A stretch of 64,000 nt of DNA, taken from the NCBI GenBank assembly GCA_948144175.1, contig CANXME010001258.1, positions 1,411,001-1,475,000 on the forward strand. Reading direction: 5' to 3'. Made by a program: the position numbers and the translations under genes. The DNA comes from Closterium sp. NIES-65. Lineage: Eukaryota; Streptophyta; Zygnematophyceae; Desmidiales; Closteriaceae. A model generated the notes under the pieces. It was not told the DNA's origin and did no database searches. It worked only from the letters and a program-made list of their open reading frames with translations. Each line of letters opens with the position of its first letter. Position 1 is the first letter of the stretch. Shown piece after piece: positions 28,397-62,204 of the stretch.

Positions 28397-31300
28397 ATGT
28401 GGTTGGCGGTGATTGCGGCGGTGGCAGCGTCGAGCGGCAACAACATTGGCAAGGTGCTGCAGAAGCAGGCCACGAGGAGCCTCCCGCGTCTCACGCTCGA
28501 ATCCAAGGTGCCGCCACGCTGCCACGCTGCCACGCTGTCACGATGCTCGCTGCTTGCTCCTGCCACTCCACTCTCTCATCCCGCCCTCCCCTTGCCTCCG
28601 CCTACTATCCTTCTCCGCATGCCCCCTGCTGCACGCCTGCCTGTTGCGGGCCTTTTTTAAAATTCCCAGCAAACTCCCGTCTCGCCATTCACATCCCGGT
28701 GCGCTCTTCCCACTCTTGCGCTCCTCCTCCCCCTCTCTCTCACACTCGCCCCCGATTTCCAGCCATACGTGGCCTTTCCACACGAACAATGGAATCTGTA
28801 TTTCATGTGCTGTGCGTTCTCTTTATAACATCACTTCCATTCAACCAGATCCCCCTCCTCTTTCTTCCCCCGCTTCCCTTTCCCCCTCCCCTTTCCCCCT
28901 CCCCTTTCCCCCTCGCCGTTTCCCCCTCCCGTTTCTCCTCCCCCCACCCTACCCCCACCTCCCCCCTCGCCAGGTGCTATGGACGTACCTGCGCAGCCCC
29001 CTGTGGGTGGCGGGGCTGGTCATTGGCTGTTGCGTCGACTCTAACGTCCCCCCCAACTTTCCCCTTCCTCCGCCCCCACCTCCCCCCCACGGCAGGTGCT
29101 ATGGACGTACCTGCGCAGCCCCCTGTGGGTGGCGGGGCTGGTCATCGACGTGGGCGGTGGGTTGCTCATGCTTCAGGCCGTTGCTTCCGCTCCTGTGAGG
29201 ATAGGGGGGCGAAGGGGGGAAGGGGGTGGAGTGAGGGAGACGGAAGAAAGGGGCGCGGGGGGAGAGAGGGGAGAAGGGGGAGAGGAGGGAGGAGGAGAGG
29301 GGGGAGGGGGGAGGGGAAAGGGGGGAATGGAGAGGGGAGAGGGGGGAGGGGAGAGGGGAGATGAGAGCTGGGAGTGGGGGGCGGGGGAAGGCAGGGAGAG
29401 GGGGTAAAGGACAAAGAAGGTGGATCATGGATGGGAGAAGGAGGGTGGAAGGGTGGAGAGTGGAGGGTTAACTGGGCATGTTGATGCATGGAGGACAGAC
29501 TGAGCGAGAGGAGTCTAGGGGTTAAGAGCGGTTGGCTGTGGTGTGCTTCACTCGTCATGCCCGCTTCATTGCCTCACATCAGCACCTGTTCCTCCCCTTT
29601 CCTCCCTGGCTTCACCCCCCCCCTTTCCTCCCCAACCCTCATTCCTTCATCAGAACCGTTGCACTTGTCCTGCTCTTCGTCCTCCCATCTACTCTCCTGC
29701 ACTCCCCCCTTCCCTCCCTCTCTCACCCCTTTCCACCGCCAATGCCCATGCACTCTTCTCAGCAACCCACCTCTCCCCCCATCTAACCCCCTATCTCTCC
29801 CCAATCCCCGCCCAACACCCCCCCTCTTCCCCCCATCGCAGGTATCCATAGTGCAGCCGGTGTCAACGTCAGGGTTGGCCCTCATGGCGCTCTTCTCACA
29901 CCTCTACCTGCACAAGCCCATGCGCTCCTCCCAACTATCAACCTCCCTCCCCCACCTCCCTTCCATCCAACCCACCATCTCCCCCCATTCCCCTTCCCCC
30001 GTCTTCTCCCATCCCATGCCCCCTCGTCTCTTCCCCAACCCCGTCTCTCCCCATGCGCATTGAACCCCCGTTAAACACCCCCCCTCTTCCCCCCATCGCA
30101 GGTATCCATAGTGCAGCCGGTGTCAACGTCAGGGCTGGCCCTCATGGCGCTCTTCTCACACCTCTACCTGCACGAGCCCATGCGCCTGGCTGACTGGACT
30201 GGCATCCTGCTCTGCATCCTCGGCACTGTCGGTGAGCAACGAGGGGAAGCGGCCGGGGGCGGGGGGTGTGGTGGGGTTGAAGGGGAAGGCAGAGAGGAAA
30301 GTTCCCGTGGAGTGAGGCACCGAAACAGGAAACAGCAACCCCTTTGGAGCCCATGCGCCTCGTCTCGCCGAGTGTGCCGGCAGCATCCTGCTCTGCATCC
30401 TAAGCACCGTCGGTGAGGGCGTGTGCCTGGGGCATGGATGATGCGGGATGGGGAGCTGGTGATGCGGGATTGGCGGCTGGTGATGCGGGATTGGCGGCTG
30501 GTGATGCGGGATTGGCGGCTGGTGACGCGAGATTGGCGCCTGGGTGGGGTTAGGTTAGGGGGAAGCCAGAGCAAAAGGAGTCCCACTCCCACAAAGTGAG
30601 TGAGTGAGGCGTGAGACACAAGGCATGCAAACAACAGCAGCCTGTGCGCCCACACGTCCCATGTGCTTGTCACATTCATTCACACCAGCGGTGGGTGTCT
30701 CATCTGAGCACCCCTTGCCGTCCGCCCTGCCTCCCCAGATCTCCCTGCAATTTCTGAGTCGACTCATATTTGCACTCCTACCCTGCAACCCCCCCTTCCC
30801 TCCCCCTCCCTCACTCCCACCCCCCCTCCCCTCACATTCACCCCAGCGGTGGGAGTGTCATCGGAAAACCCTTTGCCATCCGCCCCGCCTCCCCAGCTCT
30901 CCCTGCGGCACCTCATGGCGTTTGTCTTCTGGGTCGTGCTGCTCCTGGTGAGAGGGGGGCATGTGAGAGGGGGGCATGTGAGAGGGGGGCATGTGAGAGG
31001 GGGGCATGTGAGAGGGGGGCACGGTGAGAGGGGGCATGTGAGAGGGGGGCACGGTGAGAGGGGGGCATGGTGAGAGGGGGGCATGTGATTGGGGGGCATG
31101 TGAGAGGGGGGCATGTGAGAGGGGGGCATGTGAGAGGGGGGCACGGTGAGAGGGGGGCATGTGAGAGGGGGGCATGGTGAGAGGGGGGCACGGTGAGAGG
31201 GGGGCACGGTGAGAGGGGGGCACAGTGAGAGGGGGGCACAGTGAGAGGGGGGCACAGTGAGAGGGGGGCACAGTGAGAGGGGGGCACAGTGAGAGGGGGG

Positions 31301-33923
31301 CACAGTGAGAGGGGGGCACAGTGAGAGGGGGGCACAGTGAGAGGGGGGCACAGTGAGAGGGGGGCACAGTGAGAGGGGGGCACAGTGAGAGGGGGGCACA
31401 GTGAGAGGGGGGCACAGTGAGAGGGGGGCACGGTGAGAGGGGGGCACAGTGAGAGGGGGCACAGTGAGAGGGGGGCACAGTGAGAGGGGGGCACAGTGAG
31501 AGGGGGGCACAGTGAGAGGGGGGCACAGTGAGAGGGGGGCACAGTGAGAGGGGGGCACAGTGAGAGGGGGGCACAGTGAGAGGGGGGCACAGTGAGAGGG
31601 GGGCACAGTGAGAGGGGGGCACAGTGAGAGGGGGGCACACGGTGAGAGGGGGGCACAGTGAGAGGGGGCACAGTGAGAGGGGGGCACAGTGAGAGGGGGG
31701 CACAGTGAGAGGGGGGCACAGTGAGAGGGGGGCACAGTGAGAGGGGGGCACAGTGAGAGGGGGGCACAGTGAGAGGGGGGCACAGTGAGAGGGGGGCACA
31801 GTGAGAGGGGGGCACAGTGAGAGGGGGGCACAGTGAGAGGGGGGCACAGTGAGAGGGGGGCACAGTGAGAGGGGGGCACAGTGAGAGGGGGGCACAGTGA
31901 GAGGGGGGCACAGTGAGAGGGGGGCACAGTGAGAGGGGGGCACAGTGAGAGGGGGGCACAGTGAGAGGGGGGCACAGTGAGAGGGGGGCACAGTGAGAGG
32001 GGGGCACAGTGAGGAGGGGGGGGCACAGTGAGAGGGGGGCACAGTGAGAGGGGGGCACAGTGAGAGGGGGGCACAGTGAGAGGGGGCACAGTGAGAGGGG
32101 GCACAGTGAGAGGGGGGCACAGTGAGAGGGGGGCACAGTGAGAGGGGGGCACAGTGAGAGGGGGGCACAGTGAGAGGGGGGCACAGTGAGAGGGGGGCAC
32201 AGTGAGAGGGGGGCACAGTGAGAGGGGGGCACAGTGAGAGGGGGGCACAGTGAGAGGGGGGCACAGTGAGAGGGGGCACAGTGAGAGGGGGGCACAGTGA
32301 GAGGGGGGCACAGTGAGAGGGGGGCACAGTGAGAGGGGGGCACAGTGAGAGGGGGGCACAGTGAGAGGGGGGCACAGTGAGAGGGGGGCACAGTGAGAGG
32401 GGGGCACAGTGAGAGGGGGGCACAGTGAGAGGGGGGCACAGTGAGAGGGGGGCACAGTGAGAGGGGGGCACAGTGAGAGGGGGGCACAGTGAGAGGGGGG
32501 CACAGTGAGAGGGGGGCACAGTGAGAGGGGGGCACAGTGAGAGGGGGGCACAGTGAGAGGGGGGCACAGTGAGAGGGGGGCACAGTGAGAGGGGGGCACA
32601 GTGAGAGGGGGGCACAGTGAGAGGGGGGCACAGTGAGAGGGGGGCACGGTGAGAGGGGGGCACGGTGAGAGGGGGGCACAGTGAGAGGGGGGCACGGTGA
32701 GAGGGGGGCACAGGTGAGAGGGGGGCACAGTGAGAGGGGGGCACAGTGAGAGGGGGGCACAGTGAGAGGGGGGCACAGTGAGAGGGGGGCACAGTGAGAG
32801 GGGGGCACAGTGAGAGGGGGGCACAGTGAGAGGGGGCAGGAGGGGGGCACAGTGAGAGGGGGGCACAGTGAGAGGGGGGCACAGTGAGAGGGGGGCACAG
32901 TGAGAGGGGGGCACAGTGAGAGGGGGGCACAGTGAGAGGGGGGCACAGTGAGAGGGGGGCACAGTGAGAGGGGGGCACAGTGAGAGGGGGGCACAGTGAG
33001 AGGGGGGCACAGTGAGAGGGGGGCACAGTGAGAGGGGGGCACAGTGAGAGGGGGGGCACAGTGAGAGGGGGGCACAGTGAGAGGGGGGCACAGTGAGAGG
33101 GGGGCACAGTGAGAGGGGGGCACAGTGAGAGGGGGGCACAGTGAGAGGGGGGCACAGTGAGAGGGGGGCACAGTGAGAGGGGGGCACAGTGAGAGGGGGG
33201 CACAGTGAGAGGGGGGCACAGTGAGAGGGGGGCACAGTGAGAGGGGGCACAGTGAGAGGGGGGCACAGTGAGAGGGGGGCACAGTGAGAGGGGGGCACAG
33301 TGAGAGGGGGGCACAGTGAGAGGGGGGCACAGTGAGAGGGGGGCACAGTGAGAGGGGGGCACAGTGAGAGGGGCTCTCCTCAACTCTCCCCCCAACTCTC
33401 CCCCCCAACTCTCCCCCCCAACTCTCCCCCCCAACTCTCCCCCCAACTCTCCCCCCCAACTCTCCCCCCCAACTCTTCCCCCCAACCTCCCCCCCTCCAA
33501 CTCTCTCCGCTCCACTTTCCCCCCACTCCCCACTCTCTCCCTCCAGCCCTCTCCCCCACACTGCTCTCGCTGCATTCGTCTTTATCTTGTCCATATCAAC
33601 GAACCTGCACTCTTCAACTCTCCCGTATGAACCCCTACTCACTCTCAAATAGTGTTTTCACACTTCCTCACCCCTTGCCTTCCCTTTGCTCTCCTCTGCT
33701 CTCCTTTGCTCTCCTCTGCTCTCCCCTGCTATCCACTCCCCTCTTACGCTCCTCTGCTCTTATCTTCCTCTGTTCTTTGAACCGTCAACCCCATTCTGCT
33801 GAGAATGTGTCTTCCTGGTCGTCCCATGCTCCCTGCATCTGTCTGTTGTGTGTATGTGAGGTGCGTATGCGTGGTTGTGAATGCATATATCCATGCATGC
33901 GTGTGTGTGTGCGTGTGTGTGTG

Positions 33924-33959
<36 letters not shown>

Positions 33960-34325
33960 TTTTGTGCGCGCGCGTGCGTGTGCGTGTGTGCTTGTGTGCG
34001 TGTGTGTGTGTGCATGTGTATGTGTGTGCGTACGTGTGTTTGTGTGTGGCTGTGTGGGTGTGTGGCTGTGTGCGTGTGTGGCTGTGTGGGTGTGTGGCTG
34101 TGTGGGTGTGTGGGGGTGAGTCGCTGTGTGCTCATCTCATGCACGTACGTGCATGCGTGTGTGTGTATGTACAAACATGTGTGCGTGTGCATGTGTGCAT
34201 GTCCCTGCCATGTACATGCATGTGTGTATACATCCATGTGTGTGTGTGTGTGTGTGTGTGTGTCTGTGTGTGTGTGTGTGTGTCTGTGTGTGTGTGTGTC
34301 TGTGTCTGTGTGTGTGTGTGTGTGT

Positions 34326-34422
<97 letters not shown>

Positions 34423-37400
34423 TGTGTGCATGGCAGGTAGTGCTGGAGTGGTGTGCCACGGCAAGCAAGGCCAAGCGGAAAATTAAAGACCCTCCTCTTT
34501 CCGCTGTATGTCTCACTCTTACATCTACCCAACTCCTTGCGCTCTCCCTCACAACCTCTGACACATCCATTGGACACCTCTCAACCGAACTTAACCTCTC
34601 AAAATCCTGCTCTCTTCTCACCCTTATCCAATGCCCCTACAGTCGTTTGACTCTCCCTTATTACTCTATTTAATGTAGAGCATGCAGCATGAGTTGCAGC
34701 AGCGCAGTATGCCTCTCCTCCTCCTCCTCCTCCTCCTCCTCCTCCTCCTCCTCCTCCTCCTCCTCCTCCTCCTCCTCCTCCTCCTCCTCCTCCTCCTCCT
34801 CCTCCTCCTCCTCCTCCTCCTCCTCCTCCTCCTCCTCCTCCATCTGAACTACCTGTTAGCATGCACGATGCTTCAGATGTCACCTGGACACACATTGACA
34901 CGTCTCGCCACTCCACGTCCCTCCTCTTCTGTTACATTCACTTACATGCTGCCCATCATGCCATCATGCCTGCCGTCGTGCCGCCGATGCGGTGAGTCCT
35001 CTCCAGCAGGGTGCGCTGGGAGAGGGCGCCGTGGCAGAGGAGCTAGCAGCAGGGACAATCTGTTATGTCCCTGCTGCTAGCACCATGCACAATTCTTCTC
35101 ATGTCCCCTGGACATACATTCAGGCCTCCTTGGGGTAACCTGCCAGGACTGGGCGGTAATTTCATGCCCTTGTTCATGCCGTCGTGCCATCATGCCCTCA
35201 CAACCAGCAGGGCGCACTGGGAGCGGATGTGGTGGAGGAGCTAGCAGCAGGGACCCAAGCCGGGGCCTTCTTTGGGTAGGTCTACCCCATTGAGTGGGGG
35301 GGACGGGGGAAGAATGACGCATTTGGGGGGGGATGCGATGCGGTGCAGATGGGTTCTTGTAGTACCATGCCAGGGGGCCCCGTGGGGATGTGGTGGAGGA
35401 GCTAGCAGCAAGGACCCAAGCTGGGGCCTTTTTTGGGTTCGGGCTACCCCACCCACTTGGATTGCTTCCATTGCTCTGTTTCCCTGCTTAGCCTCGTCCG
35501 GCATTCTGCGATGGAAATGCGTGTGAAGTGATACAAGCTGGTGTCGTATTGAAGCTACACTGGATCTATATTGCTGTTTGCTTCAACTCCCCTCCCCTTG
35601 CCCTAAACCCTGCCTCTTCTGCTCCCCCTGCGCCACCCTGCTCCATGCCCTCTCCCTGTCCGCCCTGCATTATCCTTCACCACACATCACATCATCAGGC
35701 TGTCAGCAGCAGCAGTGAAGACAGGCATGCTGCTGGCCACAGGAGGCCCGCCCGTCTTTGCTCTCCTTGGGATTGCCGTCGGCGTCAGTCTCAGCAGCTT
35801 CGGGTTTTTCTGCCAGGTTAGTGAGGGGGTGGGGTATGGCGTACGGTGGGGTATGGCGTGCGGTGGGGTATGGCGTGCGGTGGGGTATGGCGTGCAGTGG
35901 GGTATGGTGTGCGGTGGGGTATGGCGTGCGGTGGGGTATGGCGTGCGGTGGGGTATGGCGTGCGGTGGGGTATGGCGTGCGGTGGGGTTTTGCGTGCGGT
36001 GGGGTATGGCGTGCGGTGGGGTATGGCGTGCGGTGGGGTATGGCGTGCGGTGGGGTATGGCGTGCGGTGGGGTATGGCGTACGGTGGGGTATGGCGTGCG
36101 GTGGGGTATGGCGTGCGGTGGGGTATGGCGTGCGGTGGGGTATGGCGTGCGGTGGGGTATGGCGTGCGGTGGGGTATGGCGTGCGGTGGGGTATGGCGTG
36201 CGGTGGGGTATGGCGTATGGTGGGGTATGGCGTGCGGTGGGGTATGGCGTACGGTGGGGTATGGCGTGCGGTGGGGTATGGCGTACGGTGGGGTATGGCG
36301 TGCGGTGGGGTATGGCGTGCGGTGGGGTATGGCGTGCGGTGGGGTATGGCGTACGGTGGGGTATGGCGTACGGTGGGGTATGGCGTACGGTGGGGTATGG
36401 CGTACGGTGGGGTATGGCGTACGGTGGGGTATGGCGTACGGTGGGGTATGGCGTGCGGTGGGGTATGGCGTGCGGTGGGATATGGCGTGCGGTGGGGTAT
36501 GGCGTGCTGTGGGGTATGGCGTGCGGTGGGGTATGGCGTGCGGTGGGGTATGGCGTGCGGTGGGGTATGGCGTGCGGTGGGGTATGGCGTGCGGTGGGGT
36601 ATGGCGTGCTGTGGGGTATGGCGTGCGGTGGGGTATGGCGTGCGGTGGGGTATGGCGTGCGGTGGGGTATGGCGTGCGGTGGGGTATGGCGTGCGGTGGG
36701 GTATGGCGTACGGTGGGGTATGGCGTACCGTGGGGTATGGCGTACGGTGGGGTATGGCGTATGGTGGGGTATGGCGTACGGTGGGGTATGGCGTACGGTG
36801 GGGTATGGCGTACGGTGGGGTATGGCGTGCGGTGGGGTATGGAGTGCGGTGGGGTATGGCGTGCGGTGGGGTATGGCGTGCTGTGGGGTATGGCGTGCGG
36901 TGGGGTATGGCGTGCGGTGGGGTATGGCGTGCGGTGGGGTATGGCGTGCGGTGGGGTATGGCGTACGGTGGGGTATGGCGTGCGGTGGGGTATGGCGTGC
37001 GGTGGGGTATGGCGTGCAGTGGGGTATGGTGTGCGGTGGGGTATGGCGTGCGGTGGGGTATGGCGTGCGGTGGGGTATGGCGTGCGGTGGGGTATGGCGT
37101 GCGGTGGGGTTTTGCGTGCGGTGGGGTATGGCGTGCGGTGGGGTATGGCGTGCGGTGGGGTATGGCGTGCGGTGGGTATGGCGTGCGGTGGGGTATGGCG
37201 TACGGTGGGGTATGGCGTAGCGGTGGGGTATGGCGTGCGGTGGGGTATGGCGTGCGGTGGGGTATGGCGTGCGGTGGGGTATGGCGTGCGGTGGGGTATG
37301 GCGTGCGGTGGGGTATGGCGTGCGGTGGGGTATGGCGTATGGTGGGGTATGGCGTGCGGTGGGGTATGGCGTACGGTGGGGTATGGCGTGCGGTGGGGTA

Positions 37401-39911
37401 TGGCGTACGGTGGGGTATGGCGTGCGGTGGGGTAATGGCGTGCGGTGGGGTATGGCGTGCGGTGGGGTATGGCGTACGGTGGGGTATGGCGTACGGTGGG
37501 GTATGGCGTACGGTGGGGTATGGCGTACGGTGGGGGTATGGCGTACGGTGGGGTATGGCGTACGGTGGGGTATGGCGTGCGGTGGGGTATGGCGTGCGGT
37601 GGGATATGGCGTGCGGTGGGGTATGGCGTGCTGTGGGGTATGGCGTGCGGTGGGGTATGGCGTGGTAGGCGTGCGGTGGGGTATGGCGTGCGGTGGGGTA
37701 TGGCGGCGGTGGGGTATGGCGTGCTGTGGGGTATGGCGTGCGGTGGGGTATGGCGTGCGGTGGGGTATGGCGTGCGGTGGGGTATGGCGTGCGGTGGGGT
37801 ATGGCGTGCGGTGGGGTATGGCGTACGGTGGGGTATGGCGTACCGTGGGGTATGGCGTACGGTGGGGTATGGCGTATGGTGGGGTATGGCGTACGGTGGG
37901 GTATGGCGTACGGTGGGGTATGGCGTACGGTGGGGTATGGCGTGCGGTGGGGTATGGAGTGCGGTGGGGTATGGCGTGCGGTGGGGTATGGCGTGCTGTG
38001 GGGTATGGCGTGCGGTGGGGTATGGCGTGCGGTGGGGTATGGCGTGCGGTGGGGTATGGCGTGCGGTGGGGTATGGCGTGCGGTGGAGTATGGCGTGCGG
38101 TGGGGTATGGCGTGCGGTGGGGTATGGCGTGCGGTGGGGTATGGCGTGCGGTGGGGTATGGCGTATGGTGGGGTATGGCGTGCGGTGGGGTATGGCGTGC
38201 GGTGGGGTATGGCGTACGGTGGGGTATGGCGTACGGTGGGGTATGGCGTGCGGTGGGGTATGGCGTGCGGTGGGGTATGGCGTACGGTGGGGTATGGCGT
38301 GCGGTGGGGTATGGCGTACGGTGGGGTATGGCGTATGGTGGGGTATGGCGTACGGTGGGGTATGGCGTGCGGTGGGGTATGGCGTGCGGTGGGGTATGGC
38401 GTGCGGTGGGGTATGGCGTGCGGTGGGGTATGGCGTGCGGTGGGGTATGGCGTGCGGTGGGGTATGGCGTGCGGTGGGGTATGTCATGTGGCTAGTACTT
38501 GCACATCTCCGCACACTTGTCCGCTCTCTTCCCTCAACCCATCACACCCCTTCCTTCCCGCCATCCCCTCCCCCATCAGACGCGGGGCTTTAAGGTGGGG
38601 CGGGCAGCGGTGACATGTGCAGCGGTAGCAGCAGGCATGGCATCCGCTCCCCTCTCTTTGGGGAGAACCCCCCTGCCCTCAATCCCTCACGCTCTCTCCC
38701 CCCACAAACCAACCCCTTCCCCCCCCTTCCTCGCCCTCATCAGACGCGGGGTTTCAAGGAGGGGCGAGCAGTGGTGGTGTCCACATGTGCGGCTGTAGCA
38801 GCCATGCTCACGGCTGTAGCAGCAGGTATGGCAGGCCTGGGGGAGGACCTCCCTGCCAGTGCACGCCTGCGCATGTGGCGCTTCCTCGGCTGGTAAGCTC
38901 TCTCTATGCCTCAAGGGGACCTAATCCTTCAAGGGGTGCTCTCCACATGCTTTGGTGTGCTGGGTCGTCCCAAACCTCCCTACCAGTGCACCCCTGCGCA
39001 TGTGGCGCTTCCGTGGCTGGTGAGCTAGACTACAACGGGTGCTTTCCTTTCCTCTTCTAGAGGTGCTTAAAAAAAACCCTATAACTTTGAGGCGCCGAAA
39101 AAATCACCTAAAATTCAGAGGCACCTCCGAAATAGCTTCCTTAGCTGGTGAGCTTGACTATACGGGGTGCTCTCCTTTCCTCTGAAAAGTGCACTTCTTG
39201 AAAGGGGTGCTATTTCCTGGCTCTGGAGGTTTGGGTCGTCTCAAACCTCTCTGACGATGCACGCCTGCGCATGTGGCGCTTCCGTGGCTGGTGAGCTCGG
39301 CTTTCGGATCGACTGATTGTGGCTTTGTCGATTCTTGTTGAATATGTTGAATTCGAGCTTGGATGAAACCGTCTGGGGGATGGGATGAAACCCCTTATCA
39401 GACCCTGGTTGTGTGCCTGTGCATGACCGCTCCCGCTCCTGTGCGTGTGCCTGTGCAGTGCAAGCTGTTTCAACATTCATGCCACTTCCCGCTCCTTCTC
39501 TCTGCATTTGCCTTCTCCATTCGCACTACCCTGAATCTCTTCTGACACCGTCCAATTCCCACCTCATCTTTCTTGCACGAGAGAGAGTTCAACAGCTCTC
39601 CATCACACTCTCAGCTGGATCCCCTTTTCCGTTCCCCTCCCCCGTCCCTCCAATCCTTCCCATCCCTCCCATTCTCTGTATTTTCCCGTATCTGTCTTTC
39701 CAACCCTGGTTCCTCACACAGGGGCTTGATTCTCTTTGGGATTGTACTGCTAGTGGCTGCCAAACCGCCTGACCTTGTGGGCCTAGCCAAAGCGGACGCA
39801 GCCCGCCGCAAACCTTTGCACCCCTCTCCCCGCGCACCCAACCGCTCCACTTCGCCTAGTGGGCTCTCGATAGGCATTGCAGCTGGTTTTCCTAGAAAGT
39901 ATGAGCCATAG
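28397..39911 (+). CDS. NIPA9-like magnesium transporter, nine exons
   Basis: Predicted exons: 28397-28507, 29096-29194, 30102-30231, 30847-30947, 34437-34505, 35211-35275, 35699-35816, 38744-38892 and 39722-39911. All have GT donors and AG acceptors, and the phases join to one 343-aa frame. The protein reads [20 protein letters not shown], then [58 protein letters not shown], and [20 protein letters not shown]. This order and length match the plant NIPA/DUF803 membrane family, subtype NIPA9, whose members are multi-pass proteins thought to move Mg2+. Exon 5 and the exact ends of exons 5 and 9 are the least certain. Introns 4 and 7 are each about 3 kb and mostly minisatellite. Decayed copies of exon ends surround exons 2, 3, 4, 6 and 8. 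Confidence 0.8.
28974..29025 (+). pseudogene. Decoy copy of the start of NIPA9-like exon 2
   Basis: Repeats the acceptor AG and the first 51 bases of exon 2 (GTGCTATGGACGTACCTGCG onward) about 122 bp upstream of the real exon at 29096. It then diverges at GTCATTGG, where the real exon reads GTCATCGA. Confidence 0.85.
29842..29926 (+). pseudogene. Decoy copy of the start of NIPA9-like exon 3
   Basis: About 85 bases nearly identical to the beginning of exon 3 (30102 onward), with the same upstream tract CTCTTCCCCCCATCGCAG. It ends in the [14 protein letters not shown] segment and then diverges. Only two substitutions are obvious (GGTTGG for GGCTGG, AAGCCC for GAGCCC). Confidence 0.85.
30347..30413 (+). 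pseudogene. Decoy copy of the end of NIPA9-like exon 3 with its donor
   Basis: Lies downstream of exon 3 and repeats GAGCCCATGCGCCT, then GCATCCTGCTCTGCATCCT, then the donor GTCGGTGAG, with changes between. Confidence 0.8.
30687..30750 (+). pseudogene. Decoy copy of the start of NIPA9-like exon 4
   Basis: Repeats the acceptor and first about 60 bases of exon 4 (CAGCGGTGGG, then CTGCCTCCCCAG, then TCTCCCTGC). It ends four bases before a TGAGTCGACTCA palindrome at 30755-30766. Confidence 0.8.
30948..33374 (+). repeat. 16-bp minisatellite, about 150 copies, starting exactly at the exon 4 donor
   Basis: The unit is GTGAGAGGGGGGCACA with local variants (CATG and CACG at the left end, occasional one- or two-base indels). 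The first unit is the splice donor of exon 4 itself, GTGAGAGG. Every unit therefore carries a donor-like GTGAGA. On the minus strand it reads as Cys-Pro-Pro-Leu-Thr-Val-Pro repeats; those long frames are not taken as genes. Confidence 0.95.
33375..34436 (+). repeat. Rest of intron 4: C-rich repeats and a long (TG)n tract
   Basis: About 33384-33500 is made of AACTCTCCCCCC-like units. From about 33890 to 34430 the sequence is TG-rich with nearly pure TG from 34238 on, just before the exon 5 acceptor at 34435-34436. No other gene is seen. Confidence 0.85.
34714..34842 (+). repeat. (CTC)n microsatellite in intron 5
   Basis: About 42 uninterrupted CTC triplets within the intron between exons 5 and 6. 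It gives spurious poly-Leu and poly-Gly frames. Confidence 0.95.
35009..35081 (+). pseudogene. Decoy copy of NIPA9-like exon 6, fused to a 15-bp-arm hairpin
   Basis: 35009-35056 repeats exon 6 (GTGCGCTGGGAGAG, then GAGGAGCTAGCAGCAGGGAC). Its last 15 bases, GCTAGCAGCAGGGAC at 35042-35056, are followed after 10 bases by their exact inverse complement at 35067-35081. This gives a perfect hairpin. Confidence 0.8.
35373..35437 (+). pseudogene. Second decoy copy of NIPA9-like exon 6, downstream of the real one
   Basis: Repeats GATGTGGTGGAGGAGCTAGC and GGGGCCTTTTTTGG with a weak donor GTTCGG. It stays open in the exon frame ([17 protein letters not shown]), so use as an alternative exon cannot be excluded. 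Confidence 0.75.
35826..38482 (+). repeat. 17-bp minisatellite, about 156 copies, filling intron 7
   Basis: The unit is GGGGTATGGCGTGCGGT, with a common GTACGGT variant. It begins about 10 bases after the donor of exon 7 (35817). Rare variants recur 1122 bp apart (66 units): GTGCAGTGG at 35893 and 37015, and GGTTTTGCG at 35987 and 37109. This shows a higher-order duplication. Indels appear only in the second half (37170-37710). The long open frames on both strands are by-products of the repeat. Confidence 0.95.
38580..38645 (+). pseudogene. Decoy copy of the start of NIPA9-like exon 8
   Basis: Repeats CATCAGACGCGGGG with TTTAAGGTGGGGCGGGCAGC and GCAGCGGTAGCAGCAGGCAT. It is about 165 bp upstream of the real exon (38744) and lacks part of the middle of that exon. 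Confidence 0.8.
38975..39020 (+). pseudogene. Decoy copies of the end of exon 8 with donor
   Basis: Repeats CCAGTGCACCCCTGCGCATG and TGGCGCTTCCGTGGCTG followed by GTGAGCT. A second copy lies at 39250-39290, and a shorter one (CTTCCTTAGCTGGTGAGCTT) at about 39136-39155. Confidence 0.8.
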
Positions 39912-46162: not shown

Positions 46163-46257
46163 TCTCTGAGCACAAGCAACAGTGGCCACAAGACCAGTCC
46201 AAGAGATCACAAGTATATATAGCAAGAGTACAGACGAAGCAGGCAATAAACTCAAGC

Positions 46258-52200: not shown

Positions 52201-52323
52201 CGACCAGAGGGTCTCGCCCCCCTGGACCTGACTCTCTAACAGACGGCGAGCGCGAAGAAGCCAGACGGAAAAGTCAAGTGGTCTACCGTCAGCGTCGAAA
52301 CGAAGAACTCGCGGAGTCGCCAT
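46258..52323 (-). CDS. Element J Gag-Pol polyprotein
   Basis: A single open frame. The start chosen is the ATG at 52323 (MATPRVLRFDADGRPLDF), matching the gag starts of elements C and F; the frame is open a further 12 codons upstream. Rough order (residues from the upstream Met): gag 13-290; Gly-rich 290-340; atypical zinc finger C-X13-C-X3-H-X4-C near 400-425 (ends CGRFHPPGQC); protease DSGASH near 528; GAG-pre-integrase HHCC (WHHRMGHPSLPRL) near 738; integrase D, D, E (LHLDVWGP, LHSDRGGEF, QNGVAERR) near 806, 868 and 905; Pro/Gly/Gln-rich linker to about 1500; RVT_2 from about 1560 with YVDDLVFAT near 1710; RNase H about 1880-2020. Copia order (integrase before RT) is clear. No stops or frameshifts are visible. 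Confidence 0.93.
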   Translation of the reverse strand: MATPRVLRFDADGRPLDFSVWLLRARRLLESQVQGGETLWSHASGDLPEPPEPTALGSAPDDAATARFARQRADRTAWTSRDAAACIALSSLLPESEEVHFTQVRTAAAYLTAIKARYSTPATVSLGRLFLPFLFPDLASFERSADLIAHLRSLDASYRAACTEAQLALLPPPMAITVYFIATSLPDRLASVRDALLLKHPSELTIEVLESALKDVESNLRSVAAASGTVSPPLFHGCTVPQLPTFTASLATAATDATAAAVTTASRSRGKGGKKGSSGGGGGGGGGSGGSGGAVATGGGGSAASGETPRAAAGDSTAPAGGGDPRARQSPPVLPTPLGGAAAWYQAQRQQHLQQQQQPLSSRQPQQQQRQQLAPGSGLRQPQRGASYPPCTYQVLTGPRRGHPCGRFHPPGQCFAQLTDTVRLAYGVGGPALDWLPLVQRYGSALWGMSAEQLVDLIGAPHAMYAVVDSSVSDSVYSGVVSLGASLAQLPVASVGSCVDSRPATTSEDASLSFTLDSGASHCFFRDSTTLTPFPAPVSVALADPTTGPVTARHTTTLPCPAAPSGSLTGFHVPSFSRNLVGVRPLVSQHVGVWFEPSGETAVCVDGDSYQPLATFTAEPGSGLYTLRTGPRAPQQQPQQQQQPQPQQQQQPQPQQQQQQQQLHQRSHQQPPLLPLPPVPPPVRVPASHQVASSPQVSVSCQVPTSAPVAASCSCRSLAHPTVLWHHRMGHPSLPRLRAMSSQHLVLGLPRVLPSLPPSLAPPCGPCVEGRLRAAPHSSSLRPATEPFETLHLDVWGPAPRLGPERERYFLVVVDDFSRYTTVFPLAKKSEVTSTLIRWLLTTEDTRGRRVSCLHSDRGGEFRSGILAGFCREQGIRQSWTLPESPQQNGVAERRIGLVMEIARTSLTHACAPHFLWPYAVRYAAHQLNLWPRVSRPEVSPTSLWTGSPGVASRFRVWGCLALVRDTSADKLSPRAVPCVFLGFPEDSSDFTFYHPPSHRFFDSRDVRFEESTPYYVRYPSRGLQVPPPPLFLTAAPPPVPPVQPPPPGPAPSGVSQATPPPSVASPVQPPSPQSSSQRAAGASSREVGAAPVPVPVSGSGGGGVGAGVGAGVGAGVGTGVSGSGGAGVGAGVGAGVSGSGVGADPVGAEDSCRPGAGAGRADTGGESAPPSGSGEPGSGAGVSAASRGGAPGSSGVDSGATAASDTTPPPHPYPTRHQARVRRARDEQLALEREERELQRLEEQQQQLEPQEQQQQQQQLDPQEQQSQQQPLPQQQQSQQQQQQPLPPPVSGLRTLGLPSPSPPSSASPPVYGPTFPPPDSSPAVFPSSPPLSSPPPSRSWATRRSPRARPSSPVPFTDLRTAFLLSSPPRPSQSVLPSPPESALTVSLPTPVTDYYRTYRPVLSRVLASLVTHPRASVSSVSALTAAVTDFASTRRLDYATTLVAAPPTSPLAVGGVSALGCDALEDRQFELEFLAAASPHLCAMLLAPEGDPDALDIPTPRTYAEAVSGSWASQWRAAMDAEMASYRSTGTYVDEVPPPGANVVDGMWIYRVKRPPGSPPVFKARYVARGFSQREGVDFFQTFAPTPKMTTLRVLLHVAAQRDYELHSLDFSTAFLQGSLHEEVWLRRPSAFTGTFPPGTQWRLRRPVYGLRQAPREWHDTLRSTLSDLGFQPSSADPSLFVRRGSTPFVVLVYVDDLVFATPDRVALADVKSELQKRHTCTDLGELRHYLGLQITRDRAARTITLSQSHMVQQVLQRFGLQHSTVQRTPLAVDHRLTGPFPDEPFEPSGPYAELVGCLMYLMTCTRPDLAFPLSILARFVAPGRHRPVHWTAAVRVAKYLATTSGVGLVLGGQQSVVLTGHCDSSYADDAETHRSTQGYCFSLGSGAVSWRSTRSSSVSTSTAEAEIYAGAMAAQELRWLTFLLADLGERPSSAPTLFTDNKASILLCREPRLESRVKHIHVRYFLLRELQRRGQARFEFVESEANTADIFTKALPPRDHQRCCVQLGLVDTGSSHV

Positions 52324-52882
52324 AGTGAGAACTAACGCGAACGAACAGGCGAGTAACAACCGGGGAGAAGAGGCAAATTAGGGTTCAGGTGGGAAGGGGA
52401 CTCAGTCGCAGCGGAAGAGCGGGCTAGGGCGACGGGCCAGGGCGTAGGGTAGGGCGACGGGCTAGGGCGTAGGGTAGGGCGACGGGCCAGGGCGTAGGGT
52501 AGGGCTACGGGCCAGGGCGTAGGGTAGGGCGACGGGCCAGGGCGTAGGGTAGGGCGACGGGCCAGGGCGTAGGGTAGGGCGACGGGCCAGGGCGTAGGGA
52601 CGGGACAGGGCGACGCGACGGGGCAGGGCGGCGCGATGGGGCAGGGTGACGGGACGGGGCAGGGCGACGCGACGCGACGGGGCAGGGCGACGCGACGGGG
52701 CAGGGTGACGGGACGGGGCAGGGCGACGCGACGGGGCAGGGCAACGGGACGGGGCAGGGCGACGCGACGGGACAGGGCGACGGGACGGGGGGGAAAGGGC
52801 GGGCACGACGTGACGGGGGGAACGGGCGCGACGCGACGGGGGGAAAGAGCGCTAGGCGACGGGGGGAAAGGGCGCGACGCGA

Positions 52883-52937
<55 letters not shown>

Positions 52938-53113: not shown

Positions 53114-53223
53114 TGTCAAAATGAGGAATGATGATGCCATTGATGTTGGTTGGGGTACATATAACAAACCCTAACTTCTGTACCCCCTAAGACAAACCTC
53201 ACTACAGGCTACAACATTTGACA
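53114..53223 (-). repeat. 5' LTR of element J
   Basis: 110 bp, identical by eye to 45943-46052, with CTACT outside at 53224-53228. Confidence 0.9.
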
Positions 53224-53228
53224 CTACT

Positions 53229-56215: not shown

Positions 56216-56944
56216 GGGCAGGTGTTGCTGCGCGGCAAGCTTCGCTATACGCTTGGCTCCGCGAATCGTTATTACTGTGGAATTTATACTGCCGAGACTG
56301 AACGGGATCTATGTAATAAGCAGATAGAAACTATTCCTCGTGGGAGGCGGAATGACATTGTTTTCTCCTTTATACGATTATTTTGTGCTTAATTATCCTT
56401 GCTAAAACCACCCTTACCAAAATCAAAACCTCCTCAGCTCTAATATGCTGGTTTTCAAAGGCCTGAAAGTGCTGTAGCAAGCCTCTTAGGGAGATTTCTT
56501 TAGAACCTATATTTCATCATTCTAAAAATGAGATGAAATGCTTTTGATTATAGCCAGCAGCTAAAATAGTGACCGCCCCCCTTCTAGTTGGATCCATTCG
56601 TGCACAGTGCTACTCGTTTTTTTTTTTAACAGTGCTCTACCGAACCGCCCTCTCTGCAGCACCATTTCAAGCTGGGACAGGGTTCACTATTTTATATTTA
56701 GGTTTTGATCACACGCCTCTCTTACCGCTTTCAAATCATTGCAAGTGCAGCGCATCACACACCTCACTTGTAGACCTGTTCACTGACCACCACCCAGACA
56801 GTGAAGCACATATGCATCGCAGATAAGATGTAAGAATATAGCACAATATCCATGGGGAGGAATGCATCTTGCATGCTTGTTCGAGTAAGAGCGACAGGAT
56901 GGGAGGAGAGGACGAAAGACGGCATTGTTCTCAAAGCCTCAAGC
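56216..56944. other. Short convergent intergenic region
   Basis: Lies between two convergent genes and should hold both 3' UTRs. AT-rich, with no coding signal. Confidence 0.4.
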
Positions 56945-59900
56945 TCAACCCTTAGGCTCGTCAGCACATGCAGCTGGTGCTGCTGCTCCTTGCTCCCCCT
57001 CAGCACTGCCACCAGCTGCTGCTCCTGCTGCTGCACCCGCATCATCATCAGCAGCAGCACCAGGAGCAGCGTCACCAGCAGCAGCAGCAGCAGCGTCATC
57101 GGCTGCACCCGAAGCAGCAGCAGCAGTGTCGTTGTCGGCATAGGCAGGGAGGTCAAGCCACTGTAGCATCTGGTTGGACTCGACCTTGGACAGCATGAGC
57201 CCCACGTTGCGTCTGCCCCGCCACACTATCACCACCGCCTCCCTCCCCGTCAGCTGCCCGCGCTGCTGCTGCTCGCCTTGGGGAGAGTCTGCTGGGACGC
57301 AAGTGAAGACAGGGTGGGCGGTGGTGTGGGTGGAGAAGCAAGAGTTGCAAAGGCAGCACCCTTATTAAGAGAGTGGCGAGAGTGCAGGGATTGATCTCGT
57401 GAGTGAAACGCACTCCTCACCCCAAGTTGATGTGCTACAAGGTAGGCTGGCAACGGCATGCACCGCATCAGCGGCATCCCCAGCATCACTCCTCATCCCA
57501 CATTCTCTCCCTATGTTAATGATTCCCTCGTCTCACACCCTCCCTTGCTCTCTTCCACCACCTACACCCATCAATGTTTCCGAGACCTAAACATCTGTTT
57601 TCTTGTCCGTCCCTCCTTACTAACACACACTGTCCCTTACTCTATTCTCATCCTTGCACTTCAAACCCCTCTCTACAACACCCTTACCTCCCACTCATCC
57701 CTCCCTCGCTCAGCACACCCCCCCCCCCCCCCCCCCCCCCCCCCACCTCCCCACACATCTCTAGTGCCCATGAACAAGAACCCACAGCTCCTCTTAGCCA
57801 CTTCCAAGGCCCTCCCGCCTCTCTTCCTGTTTCATCACCCGAAGCCCTCTGCCCCCTCCCTCCCTCCCACGTTGACACCAAACACCTCTGCACTCCAGCA
57901 CCAACACAAGACCGCCCCAGCAGTCCCCTTTCCTTCTCTACACTAAACCCACCCCTGCCTCCCTTCCTCTCTCTCCCTACTTTCTCGGCTAGAGCCCCCA
58001 TCTCGGCCCCTCCCACCCCCCACGCACCTTGAAGGTCCAGCACCGGCACCGGCACCATACAGGCCGAGGTGCTGGCGCTTTAGTCTGCCTTCTGAGTGAA
58101 CGCAAAACTCATCAACCCTAATCCCCCTCCAGCACACACCTCTGGGGTCCAGCACCAGCACCACACAGCCCACATCAGTCACTTCTACGGTCAATTCAAA
58201 GCCAATCCTCCTCCCCCTCCCCCCTCCTCCTTCACGTCCCGCTCCCCTTCCCCCCCTCCCACCCCTCCCAACACGCACCTTTGGGGTCCAGCACGAGAAC
58301 CACACAGCCCATGTCCGCCGCCTCCCGCCTCCAAGGCCTTAGCAACCCCGTCGAAGAGCTCTGTGAGCAGAACCTCAATAGCCTCCCCAAACCAACACAC
58401 CTTTGGGGTCCAGCACGAGAACCACACAGCCCATGTCCGCCGCCTCTAGATCCTTAGCAACCCCTTCAGTCAGCTCGGTGAGCAGAACTGAGCGCTTGGA
58501 GAGCATCACACGGAAGTCGCGCGGGGGCACGTGCACGAGCTGGCGCGTTATGAAGGGCAGGATGAAAGGCAGGCCCTCCGCTGAGAGGCGAAAGCAGCAC
58601 GGCACCTCGCCGTCCTTGGTGCTCTGCCGCTCCTGTTAGGGGGGGAGAAGGGGGTGCGGGGTAGGATGCGGGGGGGGAGAGAGGGTGGGGGAAGGGGGAA
58701 GGGGAAGGGAGGGGGGAGGGGAAGAGCGCGGTGGGGTCGGGTTGGGAGGGTTGAGGGTGAATAGGGGAGACGAGAGGAGGAAGCAAGTGCACGAGCTGGC
58801 GCATTATGAAGGGCAGGATGAAAGGCAGGCCCTCGGCTGAGAGGCGGAAGCAGCACGGCACCTCGCCATCCTTGGTGCTCTGCCGCTCCTGGTGAGGGGA
58901 GAAAAGGGAGAAGGGGAAAGGGTGGGTTGGGGTGCGATAGGGGGGGTAGGCTGGGGGTGTATGGGGATGTTTGAAGGAGAAGGGATTGGAGAATGTATGG
59001 ACGGGAGTGGGGGGCGAGAAAAGGAGGCAGGGAGGGAGTGGCACGGCACGGCACAGCCCCAACGGGTCCAGGCCACAGCAAGCATCTTCCAAGGTGCCTC
59101 AAGCCCAAAAGAAGCACCTGCTTTCTGTAAACACCACCAGCACCCCACTCAAATAGCTTCACCCCAGTGCTGACCAGACCAACTCGCATCGACCTTTGAG
59201 GTGCCTCACAAGTCACTAGTTGGTTCTTGCATGCTCACACATGACTCAGAACTCGTTTCAAAACTCCCTTCAACAACCAACCCACTCACAAAGAGCTTGA
59301 CCCCAGTGGACACCATCTTGAGGCGCTGCCCTGACGCCTGGTTCGCCCTGATGGCCTGCGCAATGGGCTTCGACACCAGGTAGATGCGCTTGCTGTGGCT
59401 GGGCGCCTCGCTGCGCACGATCAGCTGCGAACGCAGGGGGAAGGCGGGGAGGATGCCGTAGAATGCCTCCACGCTGGTGATGGTTGGCTCATCTGAGAGG
59501 AACAGCACCGGGTCTACTCCCCTCCACCGCCCCTGCTGCTGCCGCCGCTGCGCGCGCTGCTGCTTCTCCTGCTCCTTGCTGTCTCCAGGGCCGGCAACAG
59601 CAGCAGCAGCATCTGGTTCGTCTGCTGGGTCTGCTTCTGCGTCTGCTTCTGCCTCCTCTGCAGGGTCGCCGGGCTCCGACACACCGTCAATGGAATTAGG
59701 AGCATCAGCAGAGTTTGGGCTCAGCAGGTCTTGGTCATCATCATTTGCACCTGCGTTCTCGGCATCAATACCAGCAACATCTGCATTCCCCCCTTCCTCC
59801 TCTACCTCCATCGCTTCCCCTCCCTCCGCTCCTTCACCCCCCACAGCGGCTTCTGCTTCCTCCTCTCCCTTCACCCCCCCTTCCCTGTCTCCTCCTCTTC

Positions 59901-61993
59901 TACCTCCCCTTCCCCTCCCCCTTCCCCTTCCTCTCCCTCGTCCCCTCCCTCTGGCATCCTGACCGTCCCCCTCTCCGTCTTCATCCCCTCCCTCTCCGCC
60001 CTCTCTTTCCCTCCACCACTCACGAGAAGGGGCTATTGGACAGGAGAGGGGGAGATATTGGGGCAAGTGGGGGAGGAAAAGGGGAAGTCGGTGGGAGGAG
60101 AGGAGAGAGACAAAGTTATGCAAGAGGTGGGATGTACGGACGGGAAGAGGCAGCAATGGGGAGTAGCAGAGAGGAGACGCATTCAAAGAGACCAACGTGG
60201 AGAGTATCAGAATAGAGTGGTAAAAAGTCTGCTTTTGAGTCGACTCAAAATCAGAATAGAGTGGTATAATTCTGCTTTTGAGTCGACTCAAAATCAGAAT
60301 AGAGTGGTAATAAGTCTGCTTTTGAGTCGACTCAAAATCAGAATAGAGCGGTAATAACACAAGCAAGTGAACCTCGCCGTTTCAAACACGATGCTGGCAC
60401 GGCACACTCCCACTCACCAGTGTAAGGTGCAATCGTGCCCAGCACTGCAAAGATAACACCCACCCACCCACCGCACCTCCCCCCTTCCCCCCCCCCTCCT
60501 GCTAGAGAGGCAGCACTTTTCAGGAGCCTCAATCACCGTCTCTGTCTCTCTTCCACCAAGGTCGGTCTGTATATTGGGCACAGAATGCTGGCATGGCATT
60601 GAGAATTCTGATCGCATGCTCACCACTGTAAGGCGCAACCTTGTCCAGCACAGCAATGAAGAACCCTCCCGTGTCCTGCTGGTGAGGCAGCACTCGCACA
60701 CACAGCTCCACCGGCTGCTCACACACCTCCGCCTCCGCCTCCTCCTCCTCTTCCACCACTTCTGCATTTCTCCTCCACCTCCTGCCCTCTCTTTGCCTCC
60801 CTTCTGGTTTTCCTCCCTCCTCCCCCTCTGCTGTCTCTCCCTCCTCTCCCTCCTTCCCCTCTCCTCCCTCCTCTCCCTCTCCTTCCTCACCCCCCTTCTC
60901 CTTATCTCCCTCTCCCTGCACTTCCTTCGTGCTCTCCTGTTGCCCCTCCCCTTCCTTACCGCCCCCCTCCACAACAGCTGCAGCATCTTTGCAATCAACA
61001 GCGGGAGCATCAGCAACAACTGCGGCACCATCGGTGGCAGCAGCGGCAGGGGCAACAGCAGCAGTGGCAGCGGCAGCAGCGGGTGCTTTACCGGAGGGGA
61101 ACATGGATGGGGTGGTGACTGCCCCTCGGTACACGATGCGCGGGGTATAGTGGGCATGCCAGCCAAAGCGATCCTTCACCTGCAGGGAAAGAAAGTGGTG
61201 GGAGCGAGAGGTGAAAGGAAAGAGTTGCAGAAAGCGGGAAGGAGAGAGGGAGGGATGGAGTAAGAGGGAGAGAGGACGAGGGGAGCGTGGGAGCGAGGGG
61301 AGAGAGAAGGAGAGATAAGGAGGGAGACGAGGAGGGGAGCAAGGGAGCGGCGAACGGGGTTAAGCGAGGGAGAACGAATAGTTTGTGCGATAGAGGAAGG
61401 TTGGGAGGCGGCGTAGGAGACACACGGCGGAACCGGGAGGCTCATGAAAGGGGGGTGTGCATGGTGAGGGGGTGTGGAGAGTGCAGAATGGGCAGCAGGA
61501 AAGCATGAGAGCCGCAGGATGGGATAACCGGAATCAGCAACAAGGTGACTTTCGAGTCGAATGAACAGGGAAAGATGGGATAGCAGGACTGCACGACCGG
61601 AAGCTGTGGAAATAAACATTTCCCACCGGGAATTGTCCAGCACCCCCTCGTCCCCCAGAAGCCGTGTTTTGAGTCGACTCAAAATTGTCCAGCACCCCCT
61701 CGTCCCCCAGAAGCTGCAAACGACATAACCTCCTGCTCTCACAATCCTTCCAATTCCTCATATTTCACTACCCTTCCCACCTTCCCACTCCCCACCCCCC
61801 CTTCCCCACCTTCCCCCCTTCCCCACCTTCACCTTCCCCACCTTTCCTCTCCCCACTTTCCCTCGCCCTACCTTCCCACTCCCACCCTTCCCCACCCCAC
61901 CTTCCACGACTTGAGGCCGGGCGAACGCTTGAGGTTGGGAAGCATGTGCGAGCAGTCCACCAGACGCATGCACCCATTGGACTCCCGTAGGAT
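56945..61993 (-). CDS. NSUN2/TRM4-like tRNA (cytosine-5) methyltransferase, C-terminal five exons (partial)
   Basis: Minus-strand exons: 61993-61901, 61179-60624, about 60002-59290, 58632-58401 and 57291-56945 (stop TGA). Exon phases agree except that the acceptor near 60002 is uncertain. The frame reads GCMRLVDCSHMLPNLKRSPG, KDRFGWHAHYTPRIVYRGAV, CVRVLPHQQDTGGFFIAVLD, VEAFYGILPAFPLRSQLIVR, RLKMVSTGVKLF, STKDGEVPCCFRLSAEGLPF, and VVIVWRGRRNVGLMLSK. These follow the order of NSUN2/TRM4 proteins, which methylate C34/C48-50 of tRNA with S-adenosylmethionine. The catalytic cysteines lie upstream, outside the window. Unusual: about 105 residues of Ala- and Glu-rich sequence before the PHQQDTGG motif, and an RG-repeat plus acidic tract (RGRGRGRGRGRGRGG) after it. 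Decayed exon-end copies fill its introns. Confidence 0.82.
57719..57743 (+). repeat. Poly-C run in the last NSUN2-like intron
   Basis: About 25 consecutive C within the intron between exons at 58401 and 57291; the intron is otherwise C-rich. Confidence 0.85.
58028..58064 (-). pseudogene. Decoy copies of the donor end of the penultimate NSUN2-like exon (three)
   Basis: Three decayed copies lie in the intron downstream of the real exon end at 58401: 58028-58064, 58140-58181 and 58279-58373. Each repeats the VVLVLDPKG segment (plus strand TTGGGGTCCAGCACGAGAAC in the closest copy) with its donor. Similarity falls with distance from the exon. Confidence 0.8.
58787..58891 (-). pseudogene. Decoy copy of the start of the penultimate NSUN2-like exon
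   Basis: Repeats the acceptor and about 105 bases of exon 58632-58401 (ERQSTKDGEVPCCFRLSAEG, then LPFILPFIMRQLVH), about 260 bp upstream of it. It then diverges. Confidence 0.85.
59143..59172 (-). pseudogene. Decoy copy of the end of NSUN2-like exon 60002-59290
   Basis: Repeats AGCACTGGGGTGAAGCTATT, then TGAGTGGGGTG (minus strand), a diverged copy of the VSTGVKLF end and its donor. Confidence 0.7.
60233..60337. repeat. Tandem 46-bp repeat carrying three TTTTGAGTC/GACTCAAAA palindromes
   Basis: Palindromes of 18 bp sit at 60233-60250, 60276-60293 and 60320-60337, separated by TCAGAATAGAGTGGTA-type spacers. They lie in an NSUN2-like intron and match the cores at 27996, 30755 and 61667. Confidence 0.85.
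60417..60452 (-). pseudogene. Decoy copy of the end of NSUN2-like exon 61179-60624
   Basis: Minus strand TTTGCAGTGCTGGGCACGAT, then TGCACCTTACACTGGTGAGT, a diverged copy of the exon end FIAVLDKVAPYSG with donor. Confidence 0.8.
61667..61684. repeat. TTTTGAGTC/GACTCAAAA palindrome within a 52-bp tandem duplication
   Basis: An 18-bp perfect palindrome. The flank ATTGTCCAGCACCCCCTCGT occurs at about 61632 and again at 61684, on either side of it. Confidence 0.8.
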
Positions 61994-62098
61994 CTGCCAT
62001 GGGGGGGAGGAACGGGGACAATGGCGGGGTGGGAGGGAGAGGGTGAGGGTGGGGGGAGCAGGAGGGGCGGAGAGGAGGGGAAGGGGACGTGTGAGGGA

Positions 62099-62165
62099 AG
62101 CATGTGCGAGCAGTCAACTAGATGCATGCAGGCATCGGACTCATGCGGGATCCCCAGGGAAGAGG
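62099..62165 (-). pseudogene. Decoy copy of the start of NSUN2-like exon 61993-61901
   Basis: Minus strand GATCCCGCATGAGTCCGATG, then TGCATGCATCTAGTTGACTG, then CTCGCACATGCTTCCC. A diverged copy upstream of the real exon. Confidence 0.8.
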
Positions 62166-62204
62166 GCAATGGGGGAGAGGGGGGAAGCGGGAGAGGGAGG
62201 GGAC

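Follow-up and report, generated by a model that had tools for sequence, protein, structure and literature searches.

The introns of three genes in a 64,000-nucleotide stretch of the Closterium sp. NIES-65 genome (contig CANXME010001258.1, forward-strand positions 1,411,001 to 1,475,000; hereafter the window, numbered from its first letter) contain copies of the edges of their neighboring exons, and these copies are real duplication scars. Closterium, a freshwater alga, is a relative of land plants, and the genes, whose models were all built by hand, are NIPA9-like, TBL-like, and NSUN2-like. On balance, we lean toward the view that the copies arose by local direct duplication, seeded in part by a palindromic mini-element. 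The original prediction, made from the letters of the window, described the exon-end copies and missed the palindromes in the spacers between them.

The 18 exons of the three genes were compared with the 16 introns by blastn (E < 0.01; 288 combinations), which yielded 16 exon copies, all direct and in an adjacent intron, with none of the 16 on the opposite strand. As predicted, acceptor copies lay upstream and donor copies downstream of the exon, the expected side in 16 of 16 cases. The edge of the copy coincided exactly with the first or last exon base in 14 of the 16 matches; the other two, from TBL exon 3 and NSUN2-like exon 1 (exons of this gene being counted from the first in the window), start at base 2 and base 10, respectively, and none of the 16 is more than 10 nt from the exon edge. 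When the introns were shuffled 60 times (first-order Markov), 17 matches were obtained altogether, at most one per shuffle, compared with 16 in the real introns; thus, the predicted exon-end copies withstood, in these three genes, the comparison with shuffled introns that had been proposed for them. Copies were present at 14 of 31 junctions (8 of 16 in the NIPA9-like gene, 1 of 6 in TBL, and 5 of 9 in NSUN2-like), 13 being detected by blastn and one, the donor of NSUN2-like exon 3, by eye. Four exons carry copies on both sides (NIPA9-like exons 3, 6, and 8 and NSUN2-like exon 4), so the two-sided arrangement predicted for NIPA9-like exon 6 was confirmed but is not unique to it. Including copies placed by eye, the splice dinucleotide is kept in 18 of 22 (AG in 8 of 10 acceptor copies and GT in 10 of 12 donor copies).

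In the NIPA9-like gene (plus strand), the end of intron 1 and the start of exon 2 recur as a decoy acceptor at 28952 to 29023, which is 96% identical to 29073 to 29145, with 50 of 50 identities in the exon part. The start of exon 3 with its intron end is copied at 29803 to 29925 (95% to 30063 to 30185), and the end of the same exon with its donor at 30383 to 30417 (91% to 30202 to 30236). Exon 4 has a copy of its start and intron end at 30677 to 30748 (86% to 30835 to 30906), and exon 6 has an upstream copy of its start at 35007 to 35056 (80%) and a downstream copy of its end and donor at 35386 to 35451 (91%). An imperfect short inverted repeat in intron 5 (35039 to 35084) adjoins the upstream copy of exon 6. 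For exon 8, the start and intron end are copied at 38522 to 38632 (76% to 38690 to 38802), and the end and donor three times, at 38974 to 39026 (91%), in a shorter version at 39135 to 39183 (86% to 39007 to 39055), and at 39245 to 39298 (87%). The start of TBL exon 3 (plus strand) was found at 43772 to 43879 (70% to 44483 to 44588), at 44240 to 44302 (81%), and nearest to the exon at 44385 to 44448, where the acceptor AG is lost (86% over 44393 to 44448). In the NSUN2-like gene (minus strand), the start of exon 1 (61993 to 61901) is copied without its AG at 62095 to 62202 (74% over 118 columns), the end and donor of exon 2 (61179 to 60624) at 60413 to 60453 (83%), and the end of exon 3 (60032 to 59290), GT lost, at 59143 to 59168 (placed by eye, 29 of 31 aligned identities, no blastn match). 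Exon 4 (58632 to 58401) has a copy of its start and intron end at 58783 to 58908 (92% over 126 positions) and four donor-side copies, at 58273 to 58373 (exon end and donor, 82%), 58133 to 58172 (92% to 58395 to 58433), 58022 to 58060 (placed by eye, 34 of 43 identities, GT kept, no blastn match), and 57876 to 57925 (78% to 58130 to 58180). Each predicted position proved to be a copy, some with a start 10 to 40 nt off (30347 aligns well from 30383, and 44361 from approximately 44385); at 59143 and 58028, the copies were recovered by aligning the places found by eye but gave no blastn match to the exon.

The copies lie 121 to 711 nt from their exons, and neighboring copies are separated by spacers of 21 to 360 nt, mostly in an X-spacer-X layout, where X is the duplicated stretch. 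When the masked gene bodies were compared with themselves, 22 direct repeats and 1 inverted repeat were obtained; 17 of the direct repeats involve an exon, 4 link decoys to each other, and 1 is intron only. The predicted fall of similarity with distance was observed, over approximately 50 nt, in the TBL exon 3 series (47/52, 45/52, and 37/51) and in the NSUN2-like exon 4 donor series (48/48, 41/48, 34/43, 32/43, and 27/38), but not in the NIPA9-like exon 8 donor series (42/48, 23/31, and 42/48), nor in NSUN2-like exon 4 when the longer blastn matches were used (82%, then 91%). As for the polarity, the one-sided layout arises because doubling in place leaves only one copy next to the remaining exon: when an acceptor is doubled, only the downstream copy adjoins the exon remainder, and when a donor is doubled, only the upstream copy does. 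The layout therefore favors duplication in place over dispersed or inverted capture and implies no special attraction to splice sites. One-sidedness, which had been offered as an informative clue, follows from the geometry of any direct duplication.

The spacers often carry a palindrome of a highly abundant family with arms TTTTGAG and a middle of TCGA, ACGT, GCGC, or AATT. The pattern TTTTGAG-NNNN-CTCAAAA, with any middle four bases (TTTTGAGNNNNCTCAAAA), occurs 30,327 times in the 874-Mb genome, against 4 occurrences of a reversed control, and the TCGA form (TTTTGAGTCGACTCAAAA) alone occurs 13,080 times, against 0 for its control. The middle is self-complementary in 46 of the 50 matches listed for the any-middle pattern, the other 4 being one base off, and in 86 of 87 palindromes in the retrieved DNA, much of which had been picked for the TCGA form. 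Perfect palindromes reach 18 to 38 bp, giving the inverted termini expected of a miniature inverted-repeat transposable element (MITE) or a terminal inverted repeat (TIR) DNA transposon. Of 110 arms of the TCGA form, 35 continue outward with GTCA. The family also forms arrays with units of approximately 37 to 77 nt and one palindrome per unit, judging from spacings among the matches listed. The palindrome sequence was not found in the literature searched.

The window itself holds five exact copies of TTTTGAGTCGACTCAAAA, and 6 sites at up to 3 mismatches were counted, where 0.02 were expected. Chance was rejected as the source of the degenerate window palindromes, since there were 12 at up to 3 mismatches versus 1.1 expected and 29 at up to 4 mismatches versus 12.0. 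As seen in the NIPA9-like gene, decayed palindromes occupy the gap between the exon 2 decoy and the true exon 2 (29028 to 29045, differing at 4 of 14 arm positions), the place right after the exon 4 decoy (30752 to 30769, 3 mismatches to TTTTGAGTCGACTCAAAA), and the interval between donor copies of exon 8 (39085 to 39131, two palindromes beginning at 39085 and 39114 with 3 and 4 mismatches), and another abuts the third donor copy of that exon (39229 to 39246, 3 mismatches). In the NSUN2-like gene, they lie in the gap beside the copy of the exon 2 donor (60517 to 60534, 3 mismatches), in the gap beside the copy of the exon 3 end (59194 to 59211, 2 mismatches), and between donor copies of exon 4 (58090 to 58107, 2 mismatches). 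Two intron-only events carry perfect palindromes: at 61636 to 61715, identical 30-nt direct repeats flank a palindrome at 61667 to 61684, and at 60206 to 60357 an array of a 44-nt unit holds one per unit (60233, 60276, and 60320). A further perfect palindrome, without flanking repeats, lies upstream of the NIPA9-like gene (28001 to 28018). The palindromes sit inside introns or between decoy and true junction.

Within the window genes, palindromes with up to 4 mismatches were concentrated in the gaps between copies, with 10 in 2,565 gap positions versus 5 in 12,101 positions elsewhere (Fisher P = 3e-5); of the 10, three occupy a single gap and one belongs to the intron-only pair at 61667, which was already known by its palindrome, and the array at 60233 accounts for three of the 5 outside. 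Counted by pairs of junction copies, a palindrome lies in the gap of 7 of 21 at up to 4 mismatches. The same arrangement was seen in a TBL paralog (locus L076), in which a perfect palindrome is flanked by direct repeats of 31 nt, alike at 30 of 31 positions, that hold the probable exon 3 donor, as judged by eye; in another locus (L002), an ACGT palindrome lies between donor copies.

Next, the surroundings of the palindrome were evaluated at 31 sites, comprising all 28 separate sites among the TCGA-form matches listed and 3 window sites; the sample comes from the first contigs of that listing and is not random, and two of its loci, L042 and L043, share flanking repeats and are not independent. 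A direct repeat between the 120-nt flanks was found at 29 of 31 sites, compared with 44% of control positions at the same loci (n = 1,500), 30% in the window (n = 1,500), and 26% on two other contigs (n = 1,600), these controls being high because the surrounding DNA is full of repeats. Both repeat copies lay within 10 nt of the palindrome at 18 of 31 sites, compared with 10%, 16%, and 5% of the respective controls. At these 18 tight sites, the direct repeats are 16 to 94 nt long, and if they are taken as target duplications, this range differs from the fixed short duplication of a MITE or TIR DNA transposon. Twenty frames from 16 of the 28 sites, picked by codon score, were searched against Pfam, and matches above the cut-off were obtained at L029 (in two exon pieces), L030, and L031; a match at L009 to Pkinase fell below it, and one at L037, nominally above the cut-off without any passing stretch, was taken as spurious. 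Overall, the palindrome family goes together with direct repeats at almost every sampled site and is the probable seed of some of the junction copies.

Copies of exon edges were also observed in other genes. Among seven loci picked up solely through a methyltransferase family search (L001 to L007), with splice edges judged by eye, direct repeats with exon edges were present in L001/L002, L003, and L004/L007; no such repeat was seen at L006, and L005 was ambiguous. Of 14 TBL loci, one of which (L073) is the window, six paralogs were mapped; L071 is a twin of L070 and L077 of L076, and L065 to L069 were excluded, as almost the entire domain was matched in a single frame. Junction copies of the expected polarity were found in two of the six (L070 and L076), and none was found in the other four, whose mapped introns measure approximately 130 to 420 nt. 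Hence, the suggestion of a genome-wide process of local duplication across junctions is supported in that the copies extend beyond the three genes, but four of six TBL paralogs are without them.

The copies are also subject to turnover. A pair of near-identical contigs, with 0.54% divergence over 19.2 kb, has 9 internal indels of at least 8 bp; 8 are clear tandem changes, and the ninth (19 bp) is partly tandem. Among the 9, a 139-bp unit carries an exon end and donor, as judged by eye, indicating that junction copies still change in number, and another consists of eight extra 60-bp palindrome units. Among kinase genes, 8 near-identical pairs were available, 2 were dropped for poor alignment, and the other 6 (22.8 kb) gave a single indel of at least 8 bp, a 72-bp tandem. 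The TBL pair L065/L066 showed 9- and 12-bp indels; none were seen in L067/L068, L067/L069, or L076/L077, and L070/L071 aligned poorly at its ends. The kinase genes (L045 to L064) often form near-identical pairs on different contigs, which fits the published copy number variation in the species complex or retained haplotypes. The 20 kinase loci were dropped as a gene survey, since nearly the whole domain lay in one frame at all of them, which points to few introns.

These observations could be joined as follows. If a staggered break were filled in from both ends, the stretch X between the cuts would be doubled, and filler would often be trapped to give X-filler-X; direct and adjacent copies, as expected from such fill-in, were found in 16 of 16 cases. 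Where an exon edge falls inside X, the outer splice site may still join the whole exon, in which case the event would be harmless, and the second X copy and the filler would turn into intron and then decay. In part of the cases, insertion of the palindromic mini-element (18 to 38 bp) may open and double the target, as is probable for the 8 of 21 pairs with palindrome-like filler; here, the palindrome (P) would have been inserted rather than pre-existing, and later unequal copying may convert some X-P-X into arrays. Patch-mediated tandem duplications at staggered breaks in rice are reportedly direct and adjacent, as in Closterium, and made from filled-in overhangs; we know of no specific palindromic sequence in them. 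More tentatively, the palindrome may be a nuclear mini-element of 18 to 38 bp with no internal sequence that moves through the genome and doubles a target of roughly 15 to 100 nt at each landing, with splicing hiding the landings at exon edges, so that introns would grow and spare splice sites would be sown.

An excess of duplication events at junctions is likely. When the observed repeat lengths were placed at random in the unmasked parts of the gene bodies, 1,871 positions resulted, of which 1,164 were intron only, 388 were exon only, and 319 fell on a junction (approximately 1 in 5), whereas 14 junctions with copies were observed versus 3 intron-only events (34860/35084, 61636/61685, and the 60206 to 60357 array). 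Part of this excess is ascertainment, as the window was picked for its junction copies. With so few seen, intron-only duplication was rejected as the main class. In a simplified detection test, 78 to 100% of simulated copies were recovered (78 to 96% of intron-only ones), with decay by substitutions only, while the window introns decay by slippage as well; the self-comparison of the gene bodies listed just one of the 3 intron-only events and missed two.

Several points weigh against duplication seeded by the palindrome. The junction excess is not predicted by a simple duplication model; a process preferring exon-like DNA, together with selection removing exon-interior events, would yield it. 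The count of 8 in 21 pairs depends on a limit of 5 mismatches, and in the gaps of the other 13 of 21 no recognizable palindrome was seen at that limit, so the palindrome may not be required. At L002, a 145-nt unit with exon end and donor is repeated as a pure tandem with no spacer. The same-locus control for flanking repeats is high (44%), such repeats are absent at 2 of the 31 palindrome sites (28001 in the window and L036), and, with these 2 counted, 13 of 31 lack repeats that fit tightly on both sides. Between the near-identical pairs compared, no palindrome was present in one member and missing in the other, and only a base change and a difference in array number were seen. No exact-arm palindrome was found in the 20 kinase loci, where about 1 was expected for approximately ten independent genes. 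Finally, the palindrome could act as a fragile site, with duplication occurring next to it.

Many of the same points would suit a process without any element, namely ordinary local tandem duplication or minisatellite growth with the palindrome as a frequent passenger, in which junction duplications are tolerated, decay outside the exon, and are noticed because the exon keeps a reference copy. All nine internal indels between the near-identical contigs are tandem changes (one partly), the sole palindrome-bearing one being array growth; large variable-number tandem repeats fill several introns; and the polarity is explained by geometry, to which the L002 tandem and the 13 pairs without a palindrome can be added. 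Nevertheless, we consider this explanation rather unlikely, given the direct repeats flanking 29 of 31 palindromes, the higher frequency of palindromes in copy gaps than elsewhere in the genes, and the spacers of the window copies, unlike pure tandems. The scarcity of intron-only events despite their simulated detection also argues against it, weakly, as two real ones were missed by the self-comparison.

Repair by capture of nearby DNA through synthesis-dependent strand annealing, in which an intron break is filled from close sequence, has a documented vertebrate counterpart. For repair-mediated proximal duplications, Pace et al. (2009) list 4 partial exon/intron donors of 824 (Table 2; PMC2671141), and, in the available part of that paper, such events are closely linked, reach 619 bp in human, and include filler, splice sites, and partial exons, much like the Closterium copies. 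The belief that the intronic copies have no described counterpart is therefore not supported, as the human events include intron splice sites (PMC2671141, available part). The distances observed here also fall within the 5-kb donor limit of this process. However, the same text reports few events per genome with exon parts, one captured exon that is inverted, and, as far as it goes, no recurrent palindromic filler, whereas here 0 of 16 copies are inverted in place of the unfixed orientation expected, and all 16 lie no more than 10 nt from an exon edge on the matching side. Capture thus appears improbable as the source of the copies.

Still less credible is an origin of palindromes and copies as remains of intron-making introner-like or MITE-like elements. 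In the available text of PMC7789003, Amoebophrya introners resemble the Closterium features in their inverted repeats, direct repeats, and hairpins in introns, but there the introner is the intron itself, with direct repeats of 3 to 5 nt at exon borders, whereas in Closterium a palindrome and long direct repeats lie inside an older intron. The palindrome covers only part of the intron, its ends are not splice sites, and the direct repeats at tight sites are neither short nor fixed. Short palindromic repeats of the Volvox carteri organelles, as described in the available part of PMC2670323, are likewise spread through intergenic and intronic DNA and thought to be selfish; they differ in being mainly organellar, judged inert in the nucleus, and approximately 50 nt on average in the set described, and that part does not mention duplication or a target site. 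An assembly or read artifact has a negligible chance of being the cause, because the genome was assembled from PacBio long reads (N50, 30 kb; PMC10407611, available part) and the exon 2 decoy is common to the gene model of another strain; the copies have also decayed to different degrees. In that Naga37s-1 model, which is computed and not derived from RNA, the decoy is joined to the true exon, and the preceding residues match the translation of the window intron.

The NIPA9-like gene (28397 to 39911, plus strand) has nine exons (28397 to 28507, 29096 to 29194, 30102 to 30231, 30847 to 30947, 34437 to 34505, 35208 to 35275, 35699 to 35816, 38744 to 38892, and 39722 to 39911) and reads open from start to stop over 344 amino acids, with a Pfam match to Mg_trans_NIPA, the NIPA magnesium transporter family. 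Its homologues are 95% identical in Closterium NIES-68, 99% over 71% in Naga37s-1, and 100% over 51% in NIES-53. The TBL-like gene (42697 to 45660, plus strand; exons 42697 to 42814, 43111 to 43340, 44531 to 44617, and 44854 to 45660) is open from start to stop over 413 amino acids and matches PC-Esterase and PMR5N. The NSUN2-like gene is represented by its 3' part (56945 to 61993, minus strand), whose five joined exons, the four given above and 57288 to 56945, are open to the stop; two of the five match NSUN2 structures. Minisatellites were observed in intron 4 of the NIPA9-like gene (30948 to 33373, 16-nt unit, approximately 153 copies), in its intron 7 (35828 to 38483, 17-nt unit, approximately 157 copies), and upstream of the first NSUN2-like exon in the window (62214 to 64000, 19-nt unit, approximately 94 copies). 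Elsewhere, imperfect long inverted repeats lie at 10357 to 10773 and 4103 to 4299, within the first 27 kb, and a stop-free frame of 2,039 amino acids runs from 46258 to 52377 on the minus strand.

If palindrome-seeded local duplication is true, intron growth and decoy splice sites would have a concrete cause, marked in the sequence, in an alga closely related to land plants. Events could be counted from strain to strain by their palindromes, and their rate, target choice, and decay would become measurable. The intronic copies also mislead annotation, as the public Naga37s-1 gene model (P0002) takes the exon 2 decoy as coding.

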